Shown here piece after piece: positions 3,008 to 37,461 of a stretch of DNA of 64,000 nt. Position numbers and translations under genes: made by a program. The stretch's first letter is position 1. The number at the start of each line of letters is the position of its first letter. This DNA is from Phascolarctobacterium sp. (GTDB lineage Bacteria > Bacillota > Negativicutes > Acidaminococcales > Acidaminococcaceae): assembly GCF_030531065.1 (NCBI RefSeq), contig NZ_JAUNOQ010000003.1, positions 124,001-188,000 of the forward strand. Reading direction: 5' to 3'. The notes below the pieces were generated by a model. The model had not been told where the DNA came from. It was given only the letters and a program-made list of their open reading frames with translations, and made no database searches.

Positions 3008-3454
3008 TTAAATAACGCCAGTCCAGGACAGGACAACATTCGCAATGAAGGCAGAGCAAATAAAGGTACCGGTCATAACCAGACAGGCGATTAAAACCAT
3101 CTTCCAGCCCTGCGCTACGAACTCCTTCAGCTTGTCGCTGATAGAAATACCCGCATAAGCGCCGACCATAGTCAAAGGCGCGGTGAAATTGATTTTGCCT
3201 GCCGCGGCAATAACGGTATCGCGCACCGGCGACAGCGGGCAGGCCAGCAGCAAGCCCAAAACGGAACAATAAGCGATAACCGGCAGCTTTAAGGGAATCA
3301 CCTTGCTCAGCCACACGGAAGCCAAAGAAATAGCCAACAAAATCAGCACTCCGGGAAGAGACGCTAAAAAATCAACCTTAAAGCCCACAAAATTTGCCAA
3401 GCACATACCGAAGCCCGCCACTAAAAACATTACTGCCCATTCTAAATAACGCAT
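3008..3454 (-). CDS. Small integral membrane protein, partner of DUF3100-like protein
   Basis: A 148-residue very hydrophobic protein with about five membrane segments, starting MRYLEWAVMFLVAGFGMCLA. I do not recognise the family with certainty. Its ATG overlaps the TAA of the DUF3100-like gene by one base (TAATG) and is preceded by GAGGGG, so the two are translated together. That coupling and the lack of soluble domains suggest the two proteins form one two-subunit transporter; this is inference. It is followed by an amidohydrolase. Confidence 0.65.
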   Translation of the reverse strand: MRYLEWAVMFLVAGFGMCLANFVGFKVDFLASLPGVLILLAISLASVWLSKVIPLKLPVIAYCSVLGLLLACPLSPVRDTVIAAAGKINFTAPLTMVGAYAGISISDKLKEFVAQGWKMVLIACLVMTGTFICSAFIANVVLSWTGVI

Positions 3455-4299
3455 TATTTCCCCTCCTCTGCATCTCTGGCTCCCTGCGGATTCAAAACCG
3501 GCTGCAATTTTTTGTACAGCCAATTACACAAAGGGATACCCACGAACAGCGCCATATAAATACCGTCAATGCCGGAAATAGTTTCGCTGGCGCTGGCCAA
3601 AGCGGAAATCTGCGTAGCCATATCCGGAAACATAGCGGTAAGGCTGGCGGTGGCAGAAGCCATCATAATGCCTGCGCCGACGCCTGCGGCCATACCCAAA
3701 GCATAGGGATGGAACCAGCCCAGCGCCGCCACAATGGTCGTCATAAAGCCGAAATAAATAGTTCCCACCATGCCGCCGATGATGTATATGGAAAGACTGC
3801 CTCTCGCCTCCGGTGATTCCGGTCCGAAAAGGTCCTGCACTAAAGCAAGATTCGTTTCACGATTAATGGAATGGCAGGCGCCGATAGCCTCGCGCTTCAT
3901 CCCCAGCAAAATAGCCACCGGCAAGGACAGCAAAATAGTGCCCAGATTGCCAAACTCCTGCAAAAGCAGCGCCGGCCCAGCGGAAATTACGGTTGCAATA
4001 TTAGCGCCCGCATTGATGCCCAATTTGGCGATAAACGGGCAAATGCAGACAATAACCAGCTTGGAAGCTGCCGCTACGTCCTTGCGGCTGAAAAATTTAC
4101 CCAGCTGCGGACCTGACAAAATCCCCAAAAAAATAGAATAAAAAATCGGGAATAAAATCAATACGCCCGGCCCGACCGGAATACGAATCTGCCCGATAGC
4201 ATCGGCAATAATAATAAATACGAAGGCGGCAAGATAAATCTTCCATTCGGAGCGCAGGCGCTCGCTGAGGCCACTATAAAGATAGTTCTCTTTTTTCAT
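3454..4299 (-). CDS. DUF3100-like multi-pass membrane protein
   Basis: A 281-residue membrane protein with about eight hydrophobic segments. The opening (IADAIGQIRIPVGPGVLILFP) and the central SAGPALLLQEFGNLGTILL stretch resemble DUF3100 proteins, which have no assigned function. First gene of an operon with a second membrane protein, an amidohydrolase and a TauE-type exporter, so a role as substrate importer is plausible. Divergently transcribed from a Crp-family regulator 167 bases away, which may control it. Family call from memory of the pattern, moderate certainty. Confidence 0.65.
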   Translation of the reverse strand: MKKENYLYSGLSERLRSEWKIYLAAFVFIIIADAIGQIRIPVGPGVLILFPIFYSIFLGILSGPQLGKFFSRKDVAAASKLVIVCICPFIAKLGINAGANIATVISAGPALLLQEFGNLGTILLSLPVAILLGMKREAIGACHSINRETNLALVQDLFGPESPEARGSLSIYIIGGMVGTIYFGFMTTIVAALGWFHPYALGMAAGVGAGIMMASATASLTAMFPDMATQISALASASETISGIDGIYMALFVGIPLCNWLYKKLQPVLNPQGARDAEEGK

Positions 4300-4466: not shown

Positions 4467-5183
4467 ATGAAGCTGGAAGAATTATTGGAAAAATATCCTG
4501 CCGCTAAAACTTATTTCGAGCATATGCCGAAGGAATTATTGCAGCGTTATAGCATCCGCACCTTCCCGCCGGGATATATAATTCATCAGAAGGATTATCC
4601 GCTGAATTATTTCGGCATCATTGTACACGGCGACCACCGCGTTATCAACGAATTTGAAAACGGCAATGTTTTCATGATTGAAAAAAATGAAGCCGTTGAT
4701 TTCATCGGCGAGGTAGCCATTGTAGCGGGTATGGAAAAAACCTCCGTCACCATCGAAACCCTGACGGAATGCGTCGCTTTTATGATTTCCCGCGAGGATT
4801 TTGAAATGTGGCTGTCCAAGGATATGCATTTTTTGCGGCTGATCGCTAAGGAAATAGCCTTCAAGCTCTACCGCTCGTCCTACAACCGGGGCGCCAAGCT
4901 TTTTTATCCTCCCACCTATCTGTTTATCGATTACTTGCTCAAAAATGTGCAGAAAAGTGAAATTGAAGCGAAGGGCTTCTATAAGCTGAACAAAACGCGC
5001 GAAGAAATCCGCGAAGAGCTGGGCATGACAGTCAAGACGATCAACCGTACCATCGCCAAGCTCAAGGAGCAGCAGCAAATAGGCATTAAAAGCGGTAAGG
5101 TAACGCTGTCGCTGGCCCAATACCATGCGGCGCTGGAAAACAATAAATTAACCAATGATTTTATCAGCGAAAGACGATTATAA
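4467..5183 (+). CDS. Crp/Fnr family transcriptional regulator
   Basis: A 238-residue Crp/Fnr-type regulator. Residues about 20-120 form the cyclic-nucleotide-binding-like beta barrel (IIVHGDHRVINE, then AVDFIGEVAIVAGM); the C-terminal helix-turn-helix is at KTREEIREELGMTVKTINRT (about residues 170-190). The arginine of the cAMP phosphate-binding motif is not evident, and there is no N-terminal cysteine cluster, so it is neither a clear cAMP sensor nor an FNR iron-sulfur sensor. It faces the DUF3100 operon and probably controls it. It is also the only Crp-type protein in the window that could bind the Crp-like boxes found upstream of the decarboxylase modules (33549, 35573, 37446), though such regulators are usually present in several copies per genome. 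Confidence 0.9.
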   Translation: MKLEELLEKYPAAKTYFEHMPKELLQRYSIRTFPPGYIIHQKDYPLNYFGIIVHGDHRVINEFENGNVFMIEKNEAVDFIGEVAIVAGMEKTSVTIETLTECVAFMISREDFEMWLSKDMHFLRLIAKEIAFKLYRSSYNRGAKLFYPPTYLFIDYLLKNVQKSEIEAKGFYKLNKTREEIREELGMTVKTINRTIAKLKEQQQIGIKSGKVTLSLAQYHAALENNKLTNDFISERRL

Positions 5184-28419: not shown

Positions 28420-29694
28420 TTATTTGCCGGGGAAGAACGGCCATACCATCGGAATAACAACCAAGGATACTACGAAAGCTACGATTACCAGACCGGTACC
28501 AGCTTTTACATAGTCCATGAATTTGTATCCGCCAGGGCCAAGTACCAGCGTGTTCGGAGGAGTACCTACCGGAGTTGCGAATGCGCAGGATGCTGCAACG
28601 GCGATAGCCATCAGAACTGCTTTCGGGTCAGCGCCCAGTTGCTTGGAAATTGCAATACCGATCGGGCACAGCAGAGCTGCGGATGCGGTGTTGGACATGA
28701 ACTGGGTCAGGCCGCAGGACAGGATGAACAGTACGCCGGTTACCAGAAGCGGAGAAGGAGAGCCGCCCATCAGGCCGACAGTCCATTCAGCGATCAATTT
28801 GCCAGCGCCGGTTTTATCCATTGCGGAAGATACAGGCATCATACCAGCGAACAGGAAAATGGTTACCCAGTCGATGGAAGCGTATGCTTGTTTTTCAGTT
28901 AAGCAGCCGGTCAGTACGCATACCAATGCGCCGATGATTGCTGCCATTTCCAAGGTTACGCCTTTGATATTCAGAGCCATTACCAATACTACTGCGAGCA
29001 GGATAACGCCGGAGATGATCATCTTGTTCTTGGAAGTTTCGTTAGCTTCAATCTCTTGCTCAACTTCCTGGTCAGCGTCCAGTTCTTTCTTCGGCAGCAG
29101 GTATTTGCCGACGAACATCATGTACAGCATGCCTGCTACGGATACGGGGATACCGATCCAAGCGAATTCGAAGAAGCCGAAAGCGGGCAGGCCGGCAGCG
29201 GTCAGAGCGCCGGTAGCGATGATGTTAGGAGGCGTACCTACCATGGTGATGATACCGCCCCAACCGCAAGCAAATGCCAAAGGCATCAACTGACGGGATG
29301 CGGGGATTTTAGCGGATGCGCAAATACCCAAAGCAACGGGCAGCAGGCAGGCTGCGGTACCGGTGTTGGACAATACTGCGGACAGTGCAGTACCAACAAT
29401 CATCAAACCGAACATCAAGCTGTTTTCACCGGTACCCACCATTTTAACAACGGTGTTACCAATGGCTTGAGCCAAGCCGGTGTAGAACATTGCTGCACCA
29501 ACTACGAACATGCCTGCGAACAATACTACAGTAGAGTTGGACAGGCCGCTGAATACCTGCTTAGCAGGAATCAGCCCTAAAAGGCCGCAACCAATGGCTG
29601 CGCCAGTAGCAGTAACTGCAAGAGGGATAAGTTCAGTTACGAAGAATAATGCAACTACTGCCAACAGAATTAAACATTTAATTGCTGGGGACAT
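28420..29694 (-). CDS. DASS (SLC13) family dicarboxylate transporter, copy A
   Basis: 424 residues, about eleven membrane spans. Both SNT sodium/substrate motifs are present (VLSNTGTAACLLPVALGI and FMSNTASAALLCPIGIAI), each followed by the family GTPPN motif (MVGTPPNIIATG and VGTPPNTLVLG). DASS carriers take up succinate, malate, fumarate or citrate with sodium. Start at ATG 29694 with AAGGAGG upstream. Copy B at 30183 has the same sequence from about residue 45 onward. With the decarboxylase beta subunits next door, succinate is the likely cargo (inference). Confidence 0.9.
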   Translation of the reverse strand: MSPAIKCLILLAVVALFFVTELIPLAVTATGAAIGCGLLGLIPAKQVFSGLSNSTVVLFAGMFVVGAAMFYTGLAQAIGNTVVKMVGTGENSLMFGLMIVGTALSAVLSNTGTAACLLPVALGICASAKIPASRQLMPLAFACGWGGIITMVGTPPNIIATGALTAAGLPAFGFFEFAWIGIPVSVAGMLYMMFVGKYLLPKKELDADQEVEQEIEANETSKNKMIISGVILLAVVLVMALNIKGVTLEMAAIIGALVCVLTGCLTEKQAYASIDWVTIFLFAGMMPVSSAMDKTGAGKLIAEWTVGLMGGSPSPLLVTGVLFILSCGLTQFMSNTASAALLCPIGIAISKQLGADPKAVLMAIAVAASCAFATPVGTPPNTLVLGPGGYKFMDYVKAGTGLVIVAFVVSLVVIPMVWPFFPGK

Positions 29695-30028
29695 TTTTTG
29701 TTCCTCCTTATAAAATTTTACGGCCAAAATCAGTAATTACATACAGGCAAAATGCGTTTTTTATTTATATACATTTTACCGCAAAAGGCTCCGGAGCCCG
29801 GTAAGCAAATCTAGCACTTCCCTTGCTTAATTTAATTACTTAATAGCCCCTTTATGCTTTTTTTAGTTACTTAATTCTGGTCACCATCAATGATAGCATA
29901 TTTCTTATCTAAATTCAAGTCTTTGTCACAATCCCCTTAGCGTCTTTACATATTACCAGGCGACAGCCTTATGATTAAATATACACAAACAAAGATTATT
30001 TATCCGCAGATGCACTTCTTAGCAAGCG
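29695..30028. other. Spacer between transporter copies
   Basis: AT-rich sequence with the AAGGAGG site of copy A and no open frame that I can support. No clear Crp-like box; only a half-site TGTCACA near 29925. The promoter of copy A should lie here but I cannot place it with confidence. Confidence 0.4.
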
Positions 30029-30182: not shown

Positions 30183-31457
30183 TTATTTGCCGGGGAAGAA
30201 CGGCCATACCATCGGAATAACAACCAGGGATACTACGAAAGCTACGATTACCAGACCGGTACCAGCTTTTACATAGTCCATGAATTTGTATCCGCCAGGG
30301 CCAAGTACCAGCGTGTTCGGAGGAGTACCTACCGGAGTTGCGAATGCGCAGGATGCTGCAACGGCGATAGCCATCAGAACTGCTTTCGGGTCAGCGCCCA
30401 GTTGCTTGGAAATTGCAATACCGATCGGGCACAGCAGAGCTGCGGATGCGGTGTTGGACATGAACTGGGTCAGGCCGCAGGACAGGATGAACAGTACGCC
30501 GGTTACCAGAAGCGGAGAAGGAGAGCCGCCCATCAGGCCGACAGTCCATTCAGCGATCAATTTGCCAGCGCCGGTTTTATCCATTGCGGAAGATACAGGC
30601 ATCATACCAGCGAACAGGAAAATGGTTACCCAGTCGATGGAAGCGTATGCTTGTTTTTCAGTTAAGCAGCCGGTCAGTACGCATACCAATGCGCCGATGA
30701 TTGCTGCCATTTCCAAGGTTACGCCTTTGATATTCAGAGCCATTACCAATACTACTGCGAGCAGGATAACGCCGGAGATGATCATCTTGTTCTTGGAAGT
30801 TTCGTTAGCTTCAATCTCTTGCTCAACTTCCTGGTCAGCGTCCAGTTCTTTCTTCGGCAGCAGGTATTTGCCGACGAACATCATGTACAGCATGCCTGCT
30901 ACGGATACGGGGATACCGATCCAAGCGAATTCGAAGAAGCCGAAAGCGGGCAGGCCGGCAGCGGTCAGAGCGCCGGTAGCGATGATGTTAGGAGGCGTAC
31001 CTACCATGGTGATGATACCGCCCCAACCGCAAGCAAATGCCAAAGGCATCAACTGACGGGATGCGGGGATTTTAGCGGATGCGCAAATACCCAAAGCAAC
31101 GGGCAGCAGGCAGGCTGCGGTACCGGTGTTGGACAATACTGCGGACAGTGCAGTACCAACAATCATCAAACCGAACATCAAGCTGTTTTCACCGGTACCC
31201 ACCATTTTAACAACGGTGTTACCAATGGCTTGAGCCAAGCCGGTGTAGAACATTGCTGCACCAACTACGAACATGCCTGCGAACAATACTACAGTAGAGT
31301 TGGACAGGCCGCTGAATACCTGCTTAGCAGGAATCAGCCCTAAAAGACCGCAAGCGATAGCGCCGGCGGTAGCAGTAACTGCAAGAGGGATAAGTTCAGT
31401 TACGAAGAATAATGCAATTACTGCCAACAGAATTAAACATTTTACTGCTGGGGACAT
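30183..31457 (-). CDS. DASS (SLC13) family dicarboxylate transporter, copy B
   Basis: 424 residues, identical to copy A except for a handful of changes within the first 45 residues (for example AVIALFF against AVVALFF, and TAGAIACGL against TGAAIGCGL). Same SNT and GTPPN motifs. The DNA is also almost unchanged over the last 1.15 kb, including silent sites, so the duplication is recent or is kept uniform by gene conversion. Start at ATG 31457 behind AAGGAGG. Its upstream region differs from that of copy A, so the two may be regulated differently. Confidence 0.9.
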   Translation of the reverse strand: MSPAVKCLILLAVIALFFVTELIPLAVTATAGAIACGLLGLIPAKQVFSGLSNSTVVLFAGMFVVGAAMFYTGLAQAIGNTVVKMVGTGENSLMFGLMIVGTALSAVLSNTGTAACLLPVALGICASAKIPASRQLMPLAFACGWGGIITMVGTPPNIIATGALTAAGLPAFGFFEFAWIGIPVSVAGMLYMMFVGKYLLPKKELDADQEVEQEIEANETSKNKMIISGVILLAVVLVMALNIKGVTLEMAAIIGALVCVLTGCLTEKQAYASIDWVTIFLFAGMMPVSSAMDKTGAGKLIAEWTVGLMGGSPSPLLVTGVLFILSCGLTQFMSNTASAALLCPIGIAISKQLGADPKAVLMAIAVAASCAFATPVGTPPNTLVLGPGGYKFMDYVKAGTGLVIVAFVVSLVVIPMVWPFFPGK

Positions 31458-31910
31458 TTTCTGTTCCTCCTTATAAAATTTTTATATACGGCGCCTGACG
31501 GCGCTATATACCAAGAGCGTCAATGAAAGCGTGGCTGGCTTTGCAGCAGGCTTTCCTGTATATTTTTACATTTTTTCGCGGTGCTAACCGCTCTATATCT
31601 GCTTTTAAAAAGTTGTTTTCCAAATTTAATGCGTTAATCTGTACTATGGTATGGATATTATGTGTACTTATCAGGTACAATGATACCTCTGATAAAATAC
31701 TGCATCTTTAATTACGCGCTTTGGGAGCCGCAACAAAAGTTCCAAGCGAGCGGCGCATAAAATTTTTCTTTAATTCCGTAAGTATCTTTCGCTAAAAGCG
31801 TTATGTTTATTACATTTTCAGAGGCCGCGACCAAGCGGCGCCGCCGACTAATCTATGAAGGAATAATCTAGTGTATAGCTTATAACTTTTCTTATAGTAT
31901 AAATTGATGG
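31458..31910. other. Upstream region of DASS copy B
   Basis: No gene recognised. An imperfect palindrome, TTATCAGGTA ... TACCTCTGATAA (31668-31695), about 210 bases before the carrier start may be an operator. The remainder is AT-rich and unassigned. Confidence 0.35.
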
Positions 31911-31956: not shown

Positions 31957-33090
31957 TTATTTTGCTACAGGGCCAATCATAGCCAGCATGGTACCGGCTG
32001 CAACTGCGGTACCGATTACGCCTGCAACGTTCGGGCCCATAGCGTGCATCAGCAGGAAGTTTGCCGGATTGCACTTTTGACCAACCTTTTGAGATACGCG
32101 GGCTGCCATAGGTACAGCGGATACGCCTGCGGAACCAATCAACGGGTTGGTTTGGCCGCCGTCAACCATGCACATAATCTTACCGAAGATTACGCCTGCA
32201 GCAGTACCAGCTACGAAAGCAACCAGACCAAGGATAATGATCAGGATGGTTTGGTAGTTCAGGAAGGACTCTGCGCTCATGGTCAAGCCAGTACCGGTAG
32301 CCAGCATGATGGTTACGGTGTTCATCAAAGCGTTTTGCGCGGTATCGCTCAAACGATCCAGGCAGCCGGCTTCTTTGAACAGGTTGCCCAGCATCAGCAT
32401 ACCAATCAAAGCGGTTACGGAAGGTAACAGCAAGGAAATTACGATGGTGGTCATGATCGGGAATACGATCTTTTCAAATTTGGAAACCGGACGCAGCTGC
32501 TGCATAACAATCTTGCGGTCAGCTTCGGTGGTGAACAGGTGCATGATAGGAGGCTGAATCAGCGGAACCAGAGACATGTAGGAGTATGCGGCAACGGCGA
32601 TAGCGCCCAACAGCTGCGGAGCCATCTTAGCAGCCAGATAAATGGAGGTCGGGCCGTCTGCGCCGCCGATGATACCGATAGCGGCAGCTTCCTGTACGGA
32701 GAAGCCCAGCAGCATAGCGCCCAGCAGCGCTACGAATACGCCTGCCTGAGCGGCAGCGCCCAGCAGCAAAGTCTTGGGGTTAGCGATCAGCGGACCGAAG
32801 TCGGTCATTGCGCCTACGCCTAAGAAAATCAACGGCGGGAATACTTCGTGGTTAATACCGTACATAATAACGGACATTACGCCAGGAGCCTCAAAGCCGT
32901 TTTTAGGAATGTTGGCCAGAATGCAGCCAAATGCGATAGGGGACAGCAGCAAGGGCTCAAAGCCTTTGCCAATAGCCATGTACAACAGAACCAGACCAAC
33001 GCAAATCATGATTACATGACCGCCGGTCAAAGCGGAGAAGCCGCTGTCTGCCCATACGGAAGACAAAGCAACGATAAATGCTTCAAACAT
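31957..33090 (-). CDS. Sodium-translocating decarboxylase beta subunit, copy 1
   Basis: 377 residues, OadB/GcdB/MmdB family, the membrane subunit that couples carboxyl-biotin decarboxylation to sodium export. Family motifs [40 protein letters not shown] and [16 protein letters not shown] are intact. Start at ATG 33090 (MFEAFIVALSSVWADSG) with AAGGAGG upstream. It follows a 44-residue subunit gene (33318). The exact substrate complex (methylmalonyl-CoA or glutaconyl-CoA) cannot be told from beta alone, and no alpha or biotin-carrier gene is in the window. Confidence 0.92.
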   Translation of the reverse strand: MFEAFIVALSSVWADSGFSALTGGHVIMICVGLVLLYMAIGKGFEPLLLSPIAFGCILANIPKNGFEAPGVMSVIMYGINHEVFPPLIFLGVGAMTDFGPLIANPKTLLLGAAAQAGVFVALLGAMLLGFSVQEAAAIGIIGGADGPTSIYLAAKMAPQLLGAIAVAAYSYMSLVPLIQPPIMHLFTTEADRKIVMQQLRPVSKFEKIVFPIMTTIVISLLLPSVTALIGMLMLGNLFKEAGCLDRLSDTAQNALMNTVTIMLATGTGLTMSAESFLNYQTILIIILGLVAFVAGTAAGVIFGKIMCMVDGGQTNPLIGSAGVSAVPMAARVSQKVGQKCNPANFLLMHAMGPNVAGVIGTAVAAGTMLAMIGPVAK

Positions 33091-33452: not shown

Positions 33453-33521
33453 ACACTCACCTCTTCCTCAATAATTACAGGGAAAAACTCCGTAAGATCG
33501 CTTACTTATCTTACTTTAATA

Positions 33522-33564
33522 AGTATAAATTTAATTTTTTTAATCTTCTGTTGCCTAAGTCACA
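33522..33564 (-). promoter_or_regulatory. Promoter of module 1 with Crp-like box
   Basis: -10 hexamer TATACT at 33522-33527 and the box TGTTGCCTAAGTCACA at 33549-33564 (plus-strand reading). The box centre falls about 32 bases upstream of the -10 centre, i.e. near -41.5, the class II Crp activator position. Confidence 0.65.
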
Positions 33565-33650
33565 CTTTGTTCAGCCGTCTTGCTTACATTATTTACATAA
33601 ATCGCTTACTTTATCTTCTTTAAGCTTACTATATTTTTTTAATATATTTA

Positions 33651-33666
33651 TGTTGCCTAAGTCACA
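33651..33666 (-). promoter_or_regulatory. Second Crp-like box, module 1
   Basis: The identical 16 bases TGTTGCCTAAGTCACA occur again 102 bases further upstream, with similar T-rich surroundings, as if the promoter segment had been duplicated. Confidence 0.55.
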
Positions 33667-33794
33667 GTTTTATGCTGGCATTTTGCTACAATAATAACGC
33701 AAAGCAACCATTTAATATCCTCTCAATCTTCAATTTGCGATTAGAAAGATTGGGAGACGTTGTTAAGGTAACTGCGAATTATCTTGACAAAAGA

Positions 33795-33827
33795 AAAATA
33801 ACCAGCTGCGAACTGGTTATTTTTTTG
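33795..33827. terminator. Bidirectional terminator hairpin
   Basis: AAATAACCAG CTGCGAA CTGGTTATTT with A-rich and T-rich flanks on both sides. Confidence 0.75.
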
Positions 33828-33906
33828 CGCTTTTTTAGCTGCCAGCGATATCTTCCAAAGCTTTTCGATTATACTTTGCGTTCAGCAAACGCTTTCTTAC
33901 ATAGTG

Positions 33907-33935
33907 AAACGCCCGGCCAAACGGTCGGGCGTTTT
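33907..33935 (-). terminator. Terminator after decarboxylase beta subunit 2
   Basis: AAACGCCCGACCGTTTGGCCGGGCGTTT forms a GC-rich stem with short T-run, about 55 bases past the stop codon of beta copy 2. Confidence 0.7.
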
Positions 33936-33989
33936 ACGTTTTAAACAATATACTGAAAATGTATCGGCGGGGAGAAGCAAATACTTTAA

Positions 33990-35123
33990 TTATTTAGCAA
34001 CAGGACCAATCATAGCCAGCATAGTACCGGCTGCAACTGCGGTACCGATAACGCCTGCAACGTTCGGGCCCATAGCGTGCATCAGCAGGAAGTTTGCCGG
34101 ATTGCACTTTTGACCAACCTTTTGAGATACGCGGGCTGCCATAGGTACAGCGGATACGCCTGCGGAACCAATCAACGGGTTAGTCTTGCCGCCGTCGATA
34201 GCGCACATCAGCTTACCGAAGATTACGCCGGCAGCAGTACCGCCGATGAATGCAACCAGACCTAAGAAGATAATCAGGATGGTCTGATAGTTCAGGAAGG
34301 ACTCTGCGCTCATGGTCAAGCCGGTACCGGTAGCCAGCATGATAGTTACGGTGTTCATCAAAGCGTTTTGCGCGGTATCGCTCAAACGATCCAGGCAGCC
34401 GGCTTCTTTGAACAGGTTGCCCAGCATCAGCATACCAATCAAAGCGGTTACGGAAGGTAACAGCAAGGAAATTACGATGGTGGTCATGATCGGGAATACG
34501 ATCTTTTCAAATTTGGAAACCGGACGCAGCTGCTGCATAACAATCTTGCGGTCAGCTTCGGTGGTGAACAGGTGCATGATAGGAGGCTGAATCAGCGGAA
34601 CCAGAGACATGTAGGAGTATGCGGCAACGGCGATAGCGCCCAACAGCTGCGGAGCCATCTTAGCAGCCAGATAAATGGAGGTCGGGCCGTCTGCGCCGCC
34701 GATGATACCGATAGCGGCAGCTTCCTGTACGGAGAAGCCCAGCAGCATAGCGCCCAGCAGCGCTACGAATACGCCTGCCTGAGCGGCAGCGCCCAGCAGC
34801 AAAGTCTTGGGGTTAGCGATCAGCGGACCGAAGTCGGTCATTGCGCCTACGCCTAAGAAAATCAACGGCGGGAATACTTCGTGGTTAATACCGTACATAA
34901 TAACGGACATTACGCCAGGAGCCTCAAAGCCGTTTTTAGGAATGTTGGCCAGAATGCAGCCAAATGCGATAGGGGACAGCAGCAAGGGCTCAAAGCCTTT
35001 GCCAATAGCCATGTACAACAGAACCAGACCAACGCAAATCATGATTACATGACCGCCGGTCAAAGCGGAGAAGCCGCTGTCTGCCCATACGGAAGACAAA
35101 GCAACGATAAATGCTTCAAACAT
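33990..35123 (-). CDS. Sodium-translocating decarboxylase beta subunit, copy 2
   Basis: 377 residues, the same as copy 1 except for one patch near residues 275-305 ([20 protein letters not shown] against IILGLVAFVAGTAAGVIFGK, and MCAIDGGK against MCMVDGGQ). The DNA outside the patch is nearly identical. Same motifs and same ribosome site. The patchy difference suggests gene conversion among the three copies. Preceded by its own 44-residue subunit gene and promoter. Confidence 0.92.
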   Translation of the reverse strand: MFEAFIVALSSVWADSGFSALTGGHVIMICVGLVLLYMAIGKGFEPLLLSPIAFGCILANIPKNGFEAPGVMSVIMYGINHEVFPPLIFLGVGAMTDFGPLIANPKTLLLGAAAQAGVFVALLGAMLLGFSVQEAAAIGIIGGADGPTSIYLAAKMAPQLLGAIAVAAYSYMSLVPLIQPPIMHLFTTEADRKIVMQQLRPVSKFEKIVFPIMTTIVISLLLPSVTALIGMLMLGNLFKEAGCLDRLSDTAQNALMNTVTIMLATGTGLTMSAESFLNYQTILIIFLGLVAFIGGTAAGVIFGKLMCAIDGGKTNPLIGSAGVSAVPMAARVSQKVGQKCNPANFLLMHAMGPNVAGVIGTAVAAGTMLAMIGPVAK

Positions 35124-35173
35124 ATGATAATTTCCTCCTTGTTTCCCATCAATGGGATGTAATATAAGTGCGT

Positions 35174-35188
35174 ATTGCCAAAGGCAAT
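35174..35188 (-). promoter_or_regulatory. Conserved hairpin, module 2
   Basis: ATTGCC TTT GGCAAT followed by ACGCACTTATATTA, as in modules 1 and 3. Confidence 0.55.
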
Positions 35189-35344
35189 AAAATTGCTTCA
35201 TTGTGCAGCCAGACCCTAACCGTCAGCCTGCTTCCGCCAGTCTCCCCTAGCCTGTCGGGTGCTGACCTTGCGTCTGCAACAGGCGACGCCGTGCTTGCGC
35301 TGCGCGAAGCTGCTTAAAGCAGCAATGCTGCTTCTAAACCTGGA

Positions 35345-35479
35345 TTATTTGGCTTTAGCCCTGGTCGGATCGACTACCTGAATCAGGCTCATCAAAACGC
35401 CCAAAGCGATAAGCACGCCGAAAACGATGGTCATGTTAATAAGGGCAATCAGCCACGGATTGGTTGTTACAGGACCCAT
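35345..35479 (-). CDS. 44-residue one-helix decarboxylase subunit, copy 2
   Basis: Encodes the same 44 residues as copy 1, with silent base changes. One membrane helix and the ending DPTRAKAK. It lies 221 bases before beta copy 2. Confidence 0.75.
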   Translation of the reverse strand: MGPVTTNPWLIALINMTIVFGVLIALGVLMSLIQVVDPTRAKAK

Positions 35480-35545
35480 ACACTCACCTCTTCCTCAAAA
35501 ATTACAGGGGTAAACTCCGTAAGATTCTTTTATCTTACTTTAATA

Positions 35546-35588
35546 AGTATAATTTTAAATTTTTTTACATTCTGTTGCTCACGTCACA
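35546..35588 (-). promoter_or_regulatory. Promoter of module 2 with Crp-like box
   Basis: TATACT at 35546-35551 and TGTTGCTCACGTCACA at 35573-35588. The distance from -10 to box is the same as in modules 1 and 3. Confidence 0.65.
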
Positions 35589-35749
35589 TCATATGGGCGT
35601 CATATAGTTAGATTAGTTACAAAAAGCGCTTATTTTATCTACCTTTCGCTTGCTATATTTTCTAAATTCAAAATCGCCCGCAAAGCAAATAAAAGGCCGC
35701 GTTTCGACGTTTTAGCGGCGTTTCTCAGCGTTTTCTAAAGCCGGAGGCA

Positions 35750-35790
35750 AAAAAATAAGACCCGGCAAGCAAAGCCGAGTCTTATTTTAT
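35750..35790 (-). terminator. Terminator after decarboxylase beta subunit 3
   Basis: AATAAGACTCGGC TTTGCTT GCCGGGTCTTATT followed by TTTTTG on the minus strand. Confidence 0.88.
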
Positions 35791-35851
35791 AAGTAGGGTG
35801 CGCCCCCGCAGGGGCAACGCGCATATCAGAGGGGAGAAGCCAACGTTGGAA

Positions 35852-36985
35852 TTATTTAGCAACAGGACCAATCATAGCCAGCATCGTACCGGCAGCAACT
35901 GCGGTACCGATAACGCCTGCAACGTTCGGGCCCATAGCGTGCATCAGCAGGAAGTTGGCAGGGTTTGCTTTTTGGCCGACGATCTGGGATACGCGCGCTG
36001 CCATAGGTACTGCGGATACGCCTGCGGAACCGATAAGCGGATTAGTCTTGCCGCCGTCAAGCTTGCACATAATCTTGCCGAACACAACGCCGCCCCAGGT
36101 GCCTGCTGCGAAAGCAACCAAGCCCAGGAAGATGATCAGGATGGTTTGGTAGTTCAGGAAAGCTTCTGCGCTCATGGTCAAGCCGGTACCGGTAGCCAGC
36201 ATGATGGTTACGGTGTTCATCAAAGCGTTTTGCGCGGTATCGCTCAAACGATCCAGGCAGCCTGCTTCTTTGAACAAGTTACCCAGCATCAGCATACCGA
36301 TCAAAGCGGTTACAGGGGGTAACAACAGGGAAATAACGATGGTGCAGACAATGGGGAATACGACCTTTTCAAATTTAGAAACAGGGCGCAGCTGCTGCAT
36401 AACGATCTTACGCTCTGCTTCGCTGGTGAACAGTTTCATAATAGGAGGCTGAATCAGCGGAACCAAAGACATGTAGGAATATGCAGCAACGGCGATAGCG
36501 CCCAGCAGATTGGGAGCCATTTTAGCAGCCAGATAAATAGCGGTCGGGCCGTCCGCGCCGCCGATGATGCCGATAGCGGAAGCTTCCTGTACGGTGAAGC
36601 CCAAAGCCATAGCGCCCATCAGGGATACGAATACGCCGATTTGAGCGGCAGCGCCCAACAGCAGGGTTTTGGGGTTAGCGATCAGCGGACCGAAGTCGGT
36701 CATTGCGCCTACGCCCAAGAAAATCAACGGCGGGAATACTTCGTGTTGGATACCATACATAATAACGGACATTACGCCGGGAGCCTCGAAACCATTTTTA
36801 GGAATATTGGCCAGCAGGCAGCCAAAGGCGATAGGGGAAAGCAGCAAAGGCTCAAAGCCCTTACCGATAGCCATATACAACAGTACCAGGCCAACGCAGA
36901 TCATAATAATGTTGCCGCTGGTCAAAGCGGAAAACCCGCTGTCGGCCCATACAGATGCTAAAGCAACAACAAATGCTTCAACCAT
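35852..36985 (-). CDS. Sodium-translocating decarboxylase beta subunit, copy 3
   Basis: 377 residues, start [20 protein letters not shown] behind GGAGG. About nine-tenths alike to copies 1 and 2 by eye, with changes spread through the protein ([44 protein letters not shown]). All family motifs including [20 protein letters not shown] are kept. It is the most diverged copy and probably the oldest. Same gene order with a 44-residue subunit upstream. Confidence 0.92.
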
Positions 36986-37035
36986 GAGATAAATTCCTCC
37001 TCTTTTCCCGATATGGGATTTTAATATAAGTGCGT

Positions 37036-37050
37036 ATTGCCAAAGGCAAT
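37036..37050 (-). promoter_or_regulatory. Conserved hairpin, module 3
   Basis: ATTGCC TTT GGCAAT followed by ACGCACTTATATTA, kept although the rest of this spacer has diverged. Confidence 0.55.
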
Positions 37051-37206
37051 AAAAACTTCATTTCGTTCAACGCTTACGAACTCTCAAGCCCCGCCGCCTC
37101 CCCTAGTCGGCTTGCCTTCGCGCCGCCGCGCCATGAACCAGAATCGCTTCTGCCATCCATGAAGTTGTTAAAGCAGAAAACTGCTTTGAAACCAAATACG
37201 ACGGGC

Positions 37207-37341
37207 TTATTTCGCTTTAGCCTTCGTGGGATCGACTACCTGAATCAGACTCATCAATACGCCTAAAGCGATTAGCACGCCAAATACGATAGTCATATTG
37301 ATAACGGCAATCAGCCAAGGATTAGTTGTTACAGGACCCAT
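37207..37341 (-). CDS. 44-residue one-helix decarboxylase subunit, copy 3
   Basis: Same length as copies 1 and 2, with two changes: IAVINMTIVF for IALINMTIVF and a DPTKAKAK ending. Ribosome site GGAGGTGAG. Conservation of the protein while DNA differs shows it is a real gene under selection. Confidence 0.75.
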   Translation of the reverse strand: MGPVTTNPWLIAVINMTIVFGVLIALGVLMSLIQVVDPTKAKAK

Positions 37342-37418
37342 GCGCTCACCTCCACAACATAATCGCTCCGCCCTGAGCGAAGCAGGGGAAAATATTAGCA
37401 GCTCCTTGTGCTTGTTTA

Positions 37419-37461
37419 ATTATAAGCGGCGCGCTTACCCCTAACTGTTGCCCCCGTCACC
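37419..37461 (-). promoter_or_regulatory. Promoter of module 3 with Crp-like box
   Basis: TATAAT at 37419-37424 and TGTTGCCCCCGTCACC at 37446-37461. Spacing identical to modules 1 and 2 even though the surrounding bases differ. Confidence 0.65.

Follow-up and report, generated by a model that had tools for sequence, protein, structure and literature searches.

Class II activation, as by CRP and FNR, is usually recognized by a preferred spacing of 21 bp between the regulatory site and the -10 hexamer that recurs across a large number of promoters. The described regulators that come closest to the one considered here are HcpR and HcpR2. One comparative report indicates that residues 180 and 181 set the HcpR site and that HcpR2 proteins with Ser181, a residue reported for those of C. 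thermocellum and C. difficile, have differing motifs (PMC1274295). Met68 is given as the heme ligand of P. gingivalis HcpR in a second study (PMC12750200). Here, we analyze a stretch of 64,000 nucleotides (the window) from the 2.37-Mb genome of a Phascolarctobacterium sp. (G000; other genomes are coded G001 onward and loci carry L numbers), which contains three consecutive minus-strand modules, each composed of a 44-amino-acid OadG-like subunit and an OadB beta subunit of a decarboxylase sodium pump and each preceded by a Crp-like box. According to the reading that we prefer, at a probability of about 75%, the boxes are class II sites of a Crp/Fnr protein encoded on contig 3, which activates the modules and DASS-type transporter genes, with a predicted small RNA lowering other DASS transporters.

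Phascolarctobacterium converts succinate from other gut bacteria to propionate, and a sodium gradient driven by decarboxylation can serve it as an energy source (PMC7568257). The same study reports two DASS genes at much larger transcripts-per-million values in coculture with a succinate producer, the three columns being 254, 2765, and 7570 for RS03075 and 1136, 997, and 3053 for RS04475; for the decarboxylase genes shown, two of these columns had low values, and the authors caution about too few reads (PMC7568257). A search of one open-access literature library, with RegPrecise outside its scope, found no transcriptional regulator of this succinate-consuming lifestyle in the portions of text that it returned. 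The present analysis provides a concrete candidate regulator, site, set of targets, and small RNA for succinate fermentation by Phascolarctobacterium, all open to testing.

Results

Spacing of the boxes and -10 hexamers. The original prediction described three 16-mers, a second exact copy of the first box 102 bp away, and -10 hexamers at gaps of 21 bp, and every one of these coordinates proved correct (Table 1). The form TGTnn-N6-nnACA assigned to the boxes holds for boxes 1 and 2 only, as the third ends in ACC instead of ACA. The spacing supports the proposed class II position: of 36 promoters, 24 had their best -10 hexamer exactly 21 bp from the box, with the predicted box center near -41.5. 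This set comprised the boxes before modules (7/7 at 21 bp), before DASS genes (10/20), and before the small-RNA candidate (7/9). The mean -10 score at a gap of 21 was reached by none of 2,000 rotations. Module sites in relatives were picked with a filter requiring a -10 hexamer at 20 to 22 bp, and the spacing is not independent there; the DASS, RNA, and Clostridia sets were picked by box, apart from changes made by hand to the 36-site set. Dropped from the count were two sites located at least 304 bp from the start and without a good -10 hexamer (G038 C59 and G024 C51) and one of two G039 C21 boxes. Added was the site TGTTGCTTGAGTCGCA (3 mismatches) before the first contig-3 transporter of G000, for which the count took a best -10 at 16 bp and not the TATTAT present at 21 bp. 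Several other DASS sites had TATTAT at 22 bp. In a separate set of Clostridia-type loci, the best -10 hexamer was at 21 bp in 18 of 30 boxes downstream of the regulator gene in the onward reading, and in 1 of the same 30 boxes read backward. A consensus promoter scan found no -35/-10 pair at the three module -10 hexamers. Together, site conservation and the 21-bp spacing support the proposal that a Crp/Fnr-family protein may coordinate the decarboxylase modules from a class II position.

At the Clostridia-type loci (L181 to L248), the top -10 score in the regulator's own promoter occurred at 15 bp from the box (24 boxes), a spacing that would suit negative autoregulation.

Recurrence of the boxes. 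The sequence TGTTGCNNNNGTCACA has 3 exact matches in the genome, all at this locus, for approximately 0.3 expected over both strands by our own arithmetic, and the repetition of the box exceeds chance. In the genome, the looser pattern showed no enrichment at ≤2 mismatches (79 hits versus 153 for the reversed pattern). Likewise, the box pattern was not enriched in the window at ≤3 mismatches (38 versus 41.7 expected), and the palindrome described below was found genome-wide at ≤2 mismatches in 101 places versus 163 for the control. A large CRP-type regulon was rejected, the site patterns being unenriched genome-wide at ≤2 mismatches. Boxes were retained at two modules of G036 and one of G038, and a perfect palindrome at a gap of 21 bp precedes one module of G039, which belongs to another genus. 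In the congener G035 (92% complete, no regulator found), no box at ≤2 mismatches was present at the two DASS genes scanned, and OadB had no box better than 4 mismatches with a -10 hexamer.

Palindrome of the contig-3 locus. Only two Crp/Fnr genes were found in the genome, at position 4467 of the window and on contig 3 (G000:C3:24394-25077). The latter is followed by two DASS-type transporter genes. The only two exact copies of TGTTGC-N4-GCAACA in the genome are located 5' of the contig-3 regulator gene and 5' of the second of these transporters, and a palindrome with one mismatch lies between the regulator gene and a divergent promoter. The sites compared point to TGTTGC-N4-GCAACA as the consensus instead of the CRP form, and the clade consensus does not conform to TGTGA-N6-TCACA, the E. 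coli-type CRP site. The window boxes keep the promoter-proximal GCAACA half, the distal half being TGTGAC or GGTGAC.

Of the 59 family genomes, 13 (counting G000) encode relatives of the contig-3 regulator (≥48% identity). Between -300 and +1700 of the regulator gene, the palindrome (≤1 mismatch) occurred at 11 of the 12 loci of Phascolarctobacterium type and at 54 of the 68 from other Bacillota, versus 0/12 and 0/68 for the reversed pattern; exact palindromes occurred at 8/12 and 38/68 loci, respectively. These loci were the best 80 of 96 relatives, chosen via peptide patterns of the recognition helix and not via the DNA box, and the first 12 largely repeat the family genomes with close relatives. 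Some Clostridia relatives with the same palindrome adjoin hcp, asrABC, or ferredoxin genes, the neighbors tested being nine proteins from seven loci (three hydroxylamine reductase/prismane proteins, a metallo-beta-lactamase protein, AsrA, AsrB, AsrC, a ferredoxin-type protein, and a flavin-reductase-type protein). The motif may be partly known already for Clostridia. As predicted from the sites, the regulon would be wider than the pump and include DASS transporters and the small-RNA candidate.

Exact palindromes numbered 62 in G001, 51 in G004, and 106 in G005 (for example, L056:1487, L057:262, and L058:1501). A big regulon in these genomes was set aside: the palindromes read, one each from G001, G004, G005, G008, and G009, lie in longer terminator-like GGGGC-...-GCCCC hairpins, the sequence of which is unusually uniform within one genus (G001, G004, and G005). 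Single palindromes in G033, G034, and G035 stand beside unrelated sequence and look like chance.

The contig-3 protein. Matches to PF00027 (45.7 bits, cutoff 27.5) and PF13545 (41 bits, cutoff 27) place the contig-3 protein in the Crp/Fnr family. Its structural model (mean predicted local distance difference test score, 78.5) gave P. gingivalis HcpR (9day) as the match with the best Foldseek E value; other Crp proteins exceeded HcpR in template-modeling score. The helix DADRSA(L/M)TRE is constant in 12 aligned clade members; all 9 of the more distant family homologs, like both hcp-linked paralogs shown, have a different sequence there. Of 17 distant homologs (L039 to L055), 12 are preceded within 300 bp by TGTTGT-N4-ACAACA (≤1 mismatch), a pattern picked after such sites had been seen, versus 1 of 17 for the control, and their best -10 hexamer is at 21 bp in 9 of 17 cases, reading away from the regulator gene. 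What these homologs lack is the TGTTGC form of the box. Since these homologs combine a changed helix with a shifted site, helix and site seem to change together. Phylogenetic analysis placed the 12 clade members together (100/100) among Clostridia regulators, with the fork to the others drawn open; the L190 row ends with a read-through stop, 4467 is on a very long branch, and no conclusion is drawn from their placement.

From our own alignment to CRP, we take residues 180 and 181 of the contig-3 protein to be Arg and Ser. In our own reading of the alignment, Met68 of P. gingivalis HcpR corresponds to Lys66, a difference that, on this alignment, weakens without excluding heme or nitric oxide sensing. 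No match to hcp (PF03063) was found in G000. This gene was present in 4 of the 13 genomes searched, and a separate paralog adjoins it in G057 and G058.

The small-RNA candidate. The divergent promoter of the contig-3 locus (L008:6121; box, 21 bp, TATAAT) is directed toward a conserved element of ~97 nucleotides, at the end of which are a terminator-like hairpin and a run of T residues. Eight RNA sequences share a consensus of three hairpins, with at least one compensatory change in 5 of 25 predicted pairs, and the 12-base block GAGACATTTGCT is invariant across nine. A covariance model built on eight of the nine detected the RNA in 9 of 59 genomes (E ≤ 1.7e-9), the left-out G032 sequence scoring 1.7e-9. 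Seven further hits had E values of 0.02 to 0.8, and the one in G036 (E = 0.3) was not accepted. The RNA adjoins the regulator gene in 8 of 9 cases; the G028 copy lies close to the end of a contig, and the search for the regulator found none in that genome. Searching five loci against Rfam gave no match at the gathering score.

Predicted pairing with DASS mRNAs. Complementarity of the RNA core to DASS mRNAs extends over the ribosome-binding site, the start codon, and codons 2 to 9. Scoring of 34 DASS starts in 8 genomes gave z scores of -4.4 or beyond for 24, including both window genes, and none of these 24 was reached by any of 300 shuffles. The full-length RNA gave no clear ranking against 172 starts, since four DASS starts beat 147 to 156 of the 172 and mechanical open reading frames came out on top. 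The conserved core (transcript bases 9 to 52, with a shuffle-based score), which was chosen after that result had been seen, placed DASS starts first and second by z score among 172 mechanical open reading frame starts of G000. Two further G000 DASS starts, scored separately, had z scores of -6.7 and -7.0. OadG and OadB of module 1 were discarded as targets (z = -0.7 each, the OadB start used being 3 bases off the ATG).

In 7 of the 8 RNA genomes, the strongest-pairing DASS copy without a box outpairs the strongest copy with one, with a tie in G000. This pattern suggests, on the basis of predicted pairing, a switch between transporter copies, and negative feedback on closely related DASS copies is an equally possible interpretation. 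Some copies without a box pair weakly (G000 L160, G025 L127 and L141, G032 L159, and G058 L161), which led us to lower the probability of the paralog switch.

Discussion

Proposed mechanism. We propose that the contig-3 protein, a member of a clade probably related to HcpR, would read TGTTGC-N4-GCAACA as a dimer near -41.5 and recruit RNA polymerase at promoters without a good -35 hexamer. Its predicted targets are the three OadG-OadB modules of the window, the two contig-3 DASS transporters, its own promoter, and the divergent RNA of ~97 nucleotides. Base pairing of the putative RNA to DASS mRNAs at the start codon and ribosome-binding site would reduce translation, the two box-less DASS genes of the window being among those affected. 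Upon a presumed signal, the cell would produce more of the extra carboxybiotin-decarboxylase beta subunits (sodium pump) and of one DASS set, probably for succinate, and the other DASS set would be held back.

Several observations weigh against this mechanism. At the promoter level, some DASS box sites lack a good -10 hexamer at 21 bp, the regulator's own promoter deviates from the 21-bp rule, and just 21 of 48 DASS promoters have a box (≤2 mismatches, within 450 bp). The window boxes are 2 to 3 bases off the palindrome, all in one half, and the affinity for them, as judged from these mismatches, may be low. Among 18 OadB loci scanned in relatives, box and gap passed at three sites only (two in G036 and one in G038), the remaining loci being complete operons, cut by contig ends, or box-less (e.g., the third G036 OadB, L100). 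The complete decarboxylase operon on contig 21 also has no box at ≤2 mismatches, which implies that the contribution of the modules would be limited to beta and short gamma-type subunits. As for the RNA, 5 of the 13 genomes that encode a close relative of the regulator were without a detected copy, and its pairing region is partly within predicted hairpins. Ranking of the core by raw energy placed DASS starts first and fifth of 172. Ten of the 34 DASS starts paired more weakly (z scores of -3.9 to +0.2). They include eight that were added later (-1.8, -0.5, -2.4, -3.3, -1.5, -3.9, -3.0, and +0.2, the last for a wrongly anchored start, G026 L155), and the weak pairing of these eight slightly lowered our confidence. 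Finally, DASS starts in five genomes without detected RNA also match it; therefore, conservation on the mRNA side can be partly coding constraint.

Alternative explanations. It is scarcely tenable that the boxes are shared merely through recent duplication of the modules and have no function. The OadB proteins of modules 1 and 2 are 98% identical, and these two modules were not counted as independent because of this recent duplication; the stretch of module 1 with the second box resembles a duplicated promoter; and flanks are partly conserved, with 24 of 40 bases upstream of the box kept in the module 3 lineage (G000, G036, and G038). In these same three genomes, however, 13 of 16 box positions and 6 of 6 -10 positions are kept, yet only 5 of 21 spacer positions (the contrast is smaller in the module 1/2 lineage, with 13/16 for the box and 14/21 for the spacer), and the same combination of box and gap recurs before DASS genes, before the small-RNA candidate, and in another genus. 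Activation of the modules by the Crp/Fnr protein encoded at 4467, as the original prediction had envisaged, is very unlikely. This gene is within the same 64 kb and is one of the only two of its family found, and E. coli CRP, the site of which resembles TGTGA, heads the PDB matches of its product. Nonetheless, no match was detected in any of the 58 other family genomes, some of which are incomplete, though module boxes persist in G036, G038, and G039, and 4467 was rejected through this phylogenetic absence. Its recognition helix is also unlike the one in the palindrome-bearing clade, the 300 bp preceding the 4467 gene contain no box of ≤3 mismatches, and the gene for a DUF3100 protein (window 3454-4299, minus strand), divergent from the 4467 gene, is more likely to be its target. 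The 4467 protein is thus very probably not the regulator of the window boxes, for which the contig-3 gene appears, from these comparisons, to be the better candidate.

The two remaining alternatives concern the mode of action of the regulator and the nature of the RNA. That the regulator is a repressor blocking the -35 region at the module sites is unlikely: a site at -41.5 does overlap the -35 position, and the 15-bp spacing at the regulator's own promoter in Clostridia-type loci suits repression there, but the module promoters have no recognizable -35 hexamer and a preferred 21-bp spacing shared by many promoters is what class II activation usually shows. We are less ready to dismiss the view, still an improbable one, that the element of ~97 nucleotides is an unrelated conserved terminator or leader, with a match to DASS genes stemming from an old inverted duplication. 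DASS starts are complementary even where the RNA is undetected, and several starts in RNA-bearing genomes are not complementary. Against this, the element has its own box, -10 hexamer, and terminator-like hairpin, the 12-base block remains invariant in nine sequences while stem pairs change compensatorily, and pairing spans the ribosome-binding site, start codon, and codons 2 to 9.

Features of the window. The coordinates of the modules, operators, and predicted RNA targets are given in Table 1.

TABLE 1 Features of the window and of the contig-3 locus (L008)
Feature	Position	Strand	Remarks
Module 1 operator TGTGACTTAGGCAACA	33549..33564	-	Center about -41.5
Second exact copy of module 1 operator	33651..33666	-	102 bp upstream; without TATAAT at 21 bp
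Module 1 -10 hexamer TATACT	33522..33527	-	
Module 1 short OadG-like subunit, 44 amino acids	33318..33452	-	PF04277, 27.4 bits (cutoff 27)
Module 1 OadB	31957..33090	-	PF03977
Module 2 operator TGTGACGTGAGCAACA	35573..35588	-	
Module 2 -10 hexamer TATACT	35546..35551	-	
Module 2 short OadG-like subunit	35345..35479	-	
Module 2 OadB	33990..35123	-	PF03977
Module 3 operator GGTGACGGGGGCAACA	37446..37461	-	
Module 3 -10 hexamer TATAAT	37419..37424	-	
Module 3 short OadG-like subunit	37207..37341	-	
Module 3 OadB	35852..36985	-	PF03977
DASS-type transporter, predicted small-RNA target	30183..31457	-	No good box (3 mismatches at best)
Predicted small-RNA pairing region (ribosome-binding site, start codon, first codons)	31434..31470	-	-35.3 kcal/mol
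Second DASS transporter of the window, predicted small-RNA target	28420..29694	-	Without box at ≤2 mismatches
Second predicted small-RNA pairing region	29671..29707	-	-35.3 kcal/mol
Crp/Fnr protein of the original prediction	4467..5183	+	Judged not to be the regulator of the boxes
Conserved small-RNA candidate	L008:5993-6089	-	Homologs in G023-G026, G028, G032, G057, G058

All three OadB proteins scored 508 to 510 bits for PF03977, and module 2, the sole one scanned for TIGR01109, scored 486 bits. The module OadG subunits have just 44 amino acids versus 116 in the complete contig 21 operon, the C-terminal part being missing. After the three modules come two DASS-type transporters that are 99% identical to each other; the two DASS proteins scanned for TIGR00785 (cutoff 198.6) gave 210.8 bits (window 28420) and 216.8 bits (L008:7418). 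The second box of module 1 is within sequence that looks like a tandem duplicate of the promoter that has since diverged, and no counterpart of it was present in the scanned G036 and G038 loci. CTTACTTTAAT / TTAC repeats are common to the module promoters (window 33500-33530 and 33590-33640) and to the regulator's own promoter (L008:6290-6330), are seen in relatives too, and are possibly the site of another protein.

Comparison with known systems. The module promoters resemble the class II promoters of E. coli CRP in having a site near -41.5, 21 bp to the -10 hexamer, no good -35 hexamer, and two-fold symmetry; they differ in the half-site, which is TGTGA with N6 in E. coli and TGTTGC with N4 here. 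DcuSR and DctBD likewise control C4-dicarboxylate uptake but are two-component systems, whereas a one-component Crp/Fnr protein would be involved here. FnrS and Spot 42 provide precedents for a Crp/Fnr-family regulator controlling a small RNA that pairs with the ribosome-binding sites of metabolic mRNAs. The candidate is not known to resemble these RNAs; it is divergent from its own regulator and has predicted targets in one transporter family.

The similarity to HcpR and HcpR2 includes the Crp/Fnr fold, the best Foldseek E value, Ser181 according to our own alignment, and the location of hcp, asrABC, or ferredoxin genes next to the regulator in some Clostridia relatives with the contig-3-type palindrome (PMC1274295, PMC12750200, PMC12915319). 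In contrast to the HcpR/HcpR2 motif GTAAC-N4-GTTAC and to TGTGA-N6-TCACA, the contig-3 clade is associated with TGTTGC-N4-GCAACA, a difference consistent with Ser181. The focal genome also differs in lacking a detected hcp gene, the predicted set being composed of transporter, pump, and small RNA. We only tentatively entertain the doubtful further step that an HcpR-like sensor, which in Clostridia adjoins hydroxylamine, sulfite, and redox genes, kept its DNA site and moved to succinate-driven sodium-pump metabolism and a DASS-paralog switch, in which copies with a box would be activated and strongly pairing copies without one would be shut off by the RNA. The locus would in this respect offer a case of a regulator clade in which the DNA site is retained and the genes under its control are exchanged.

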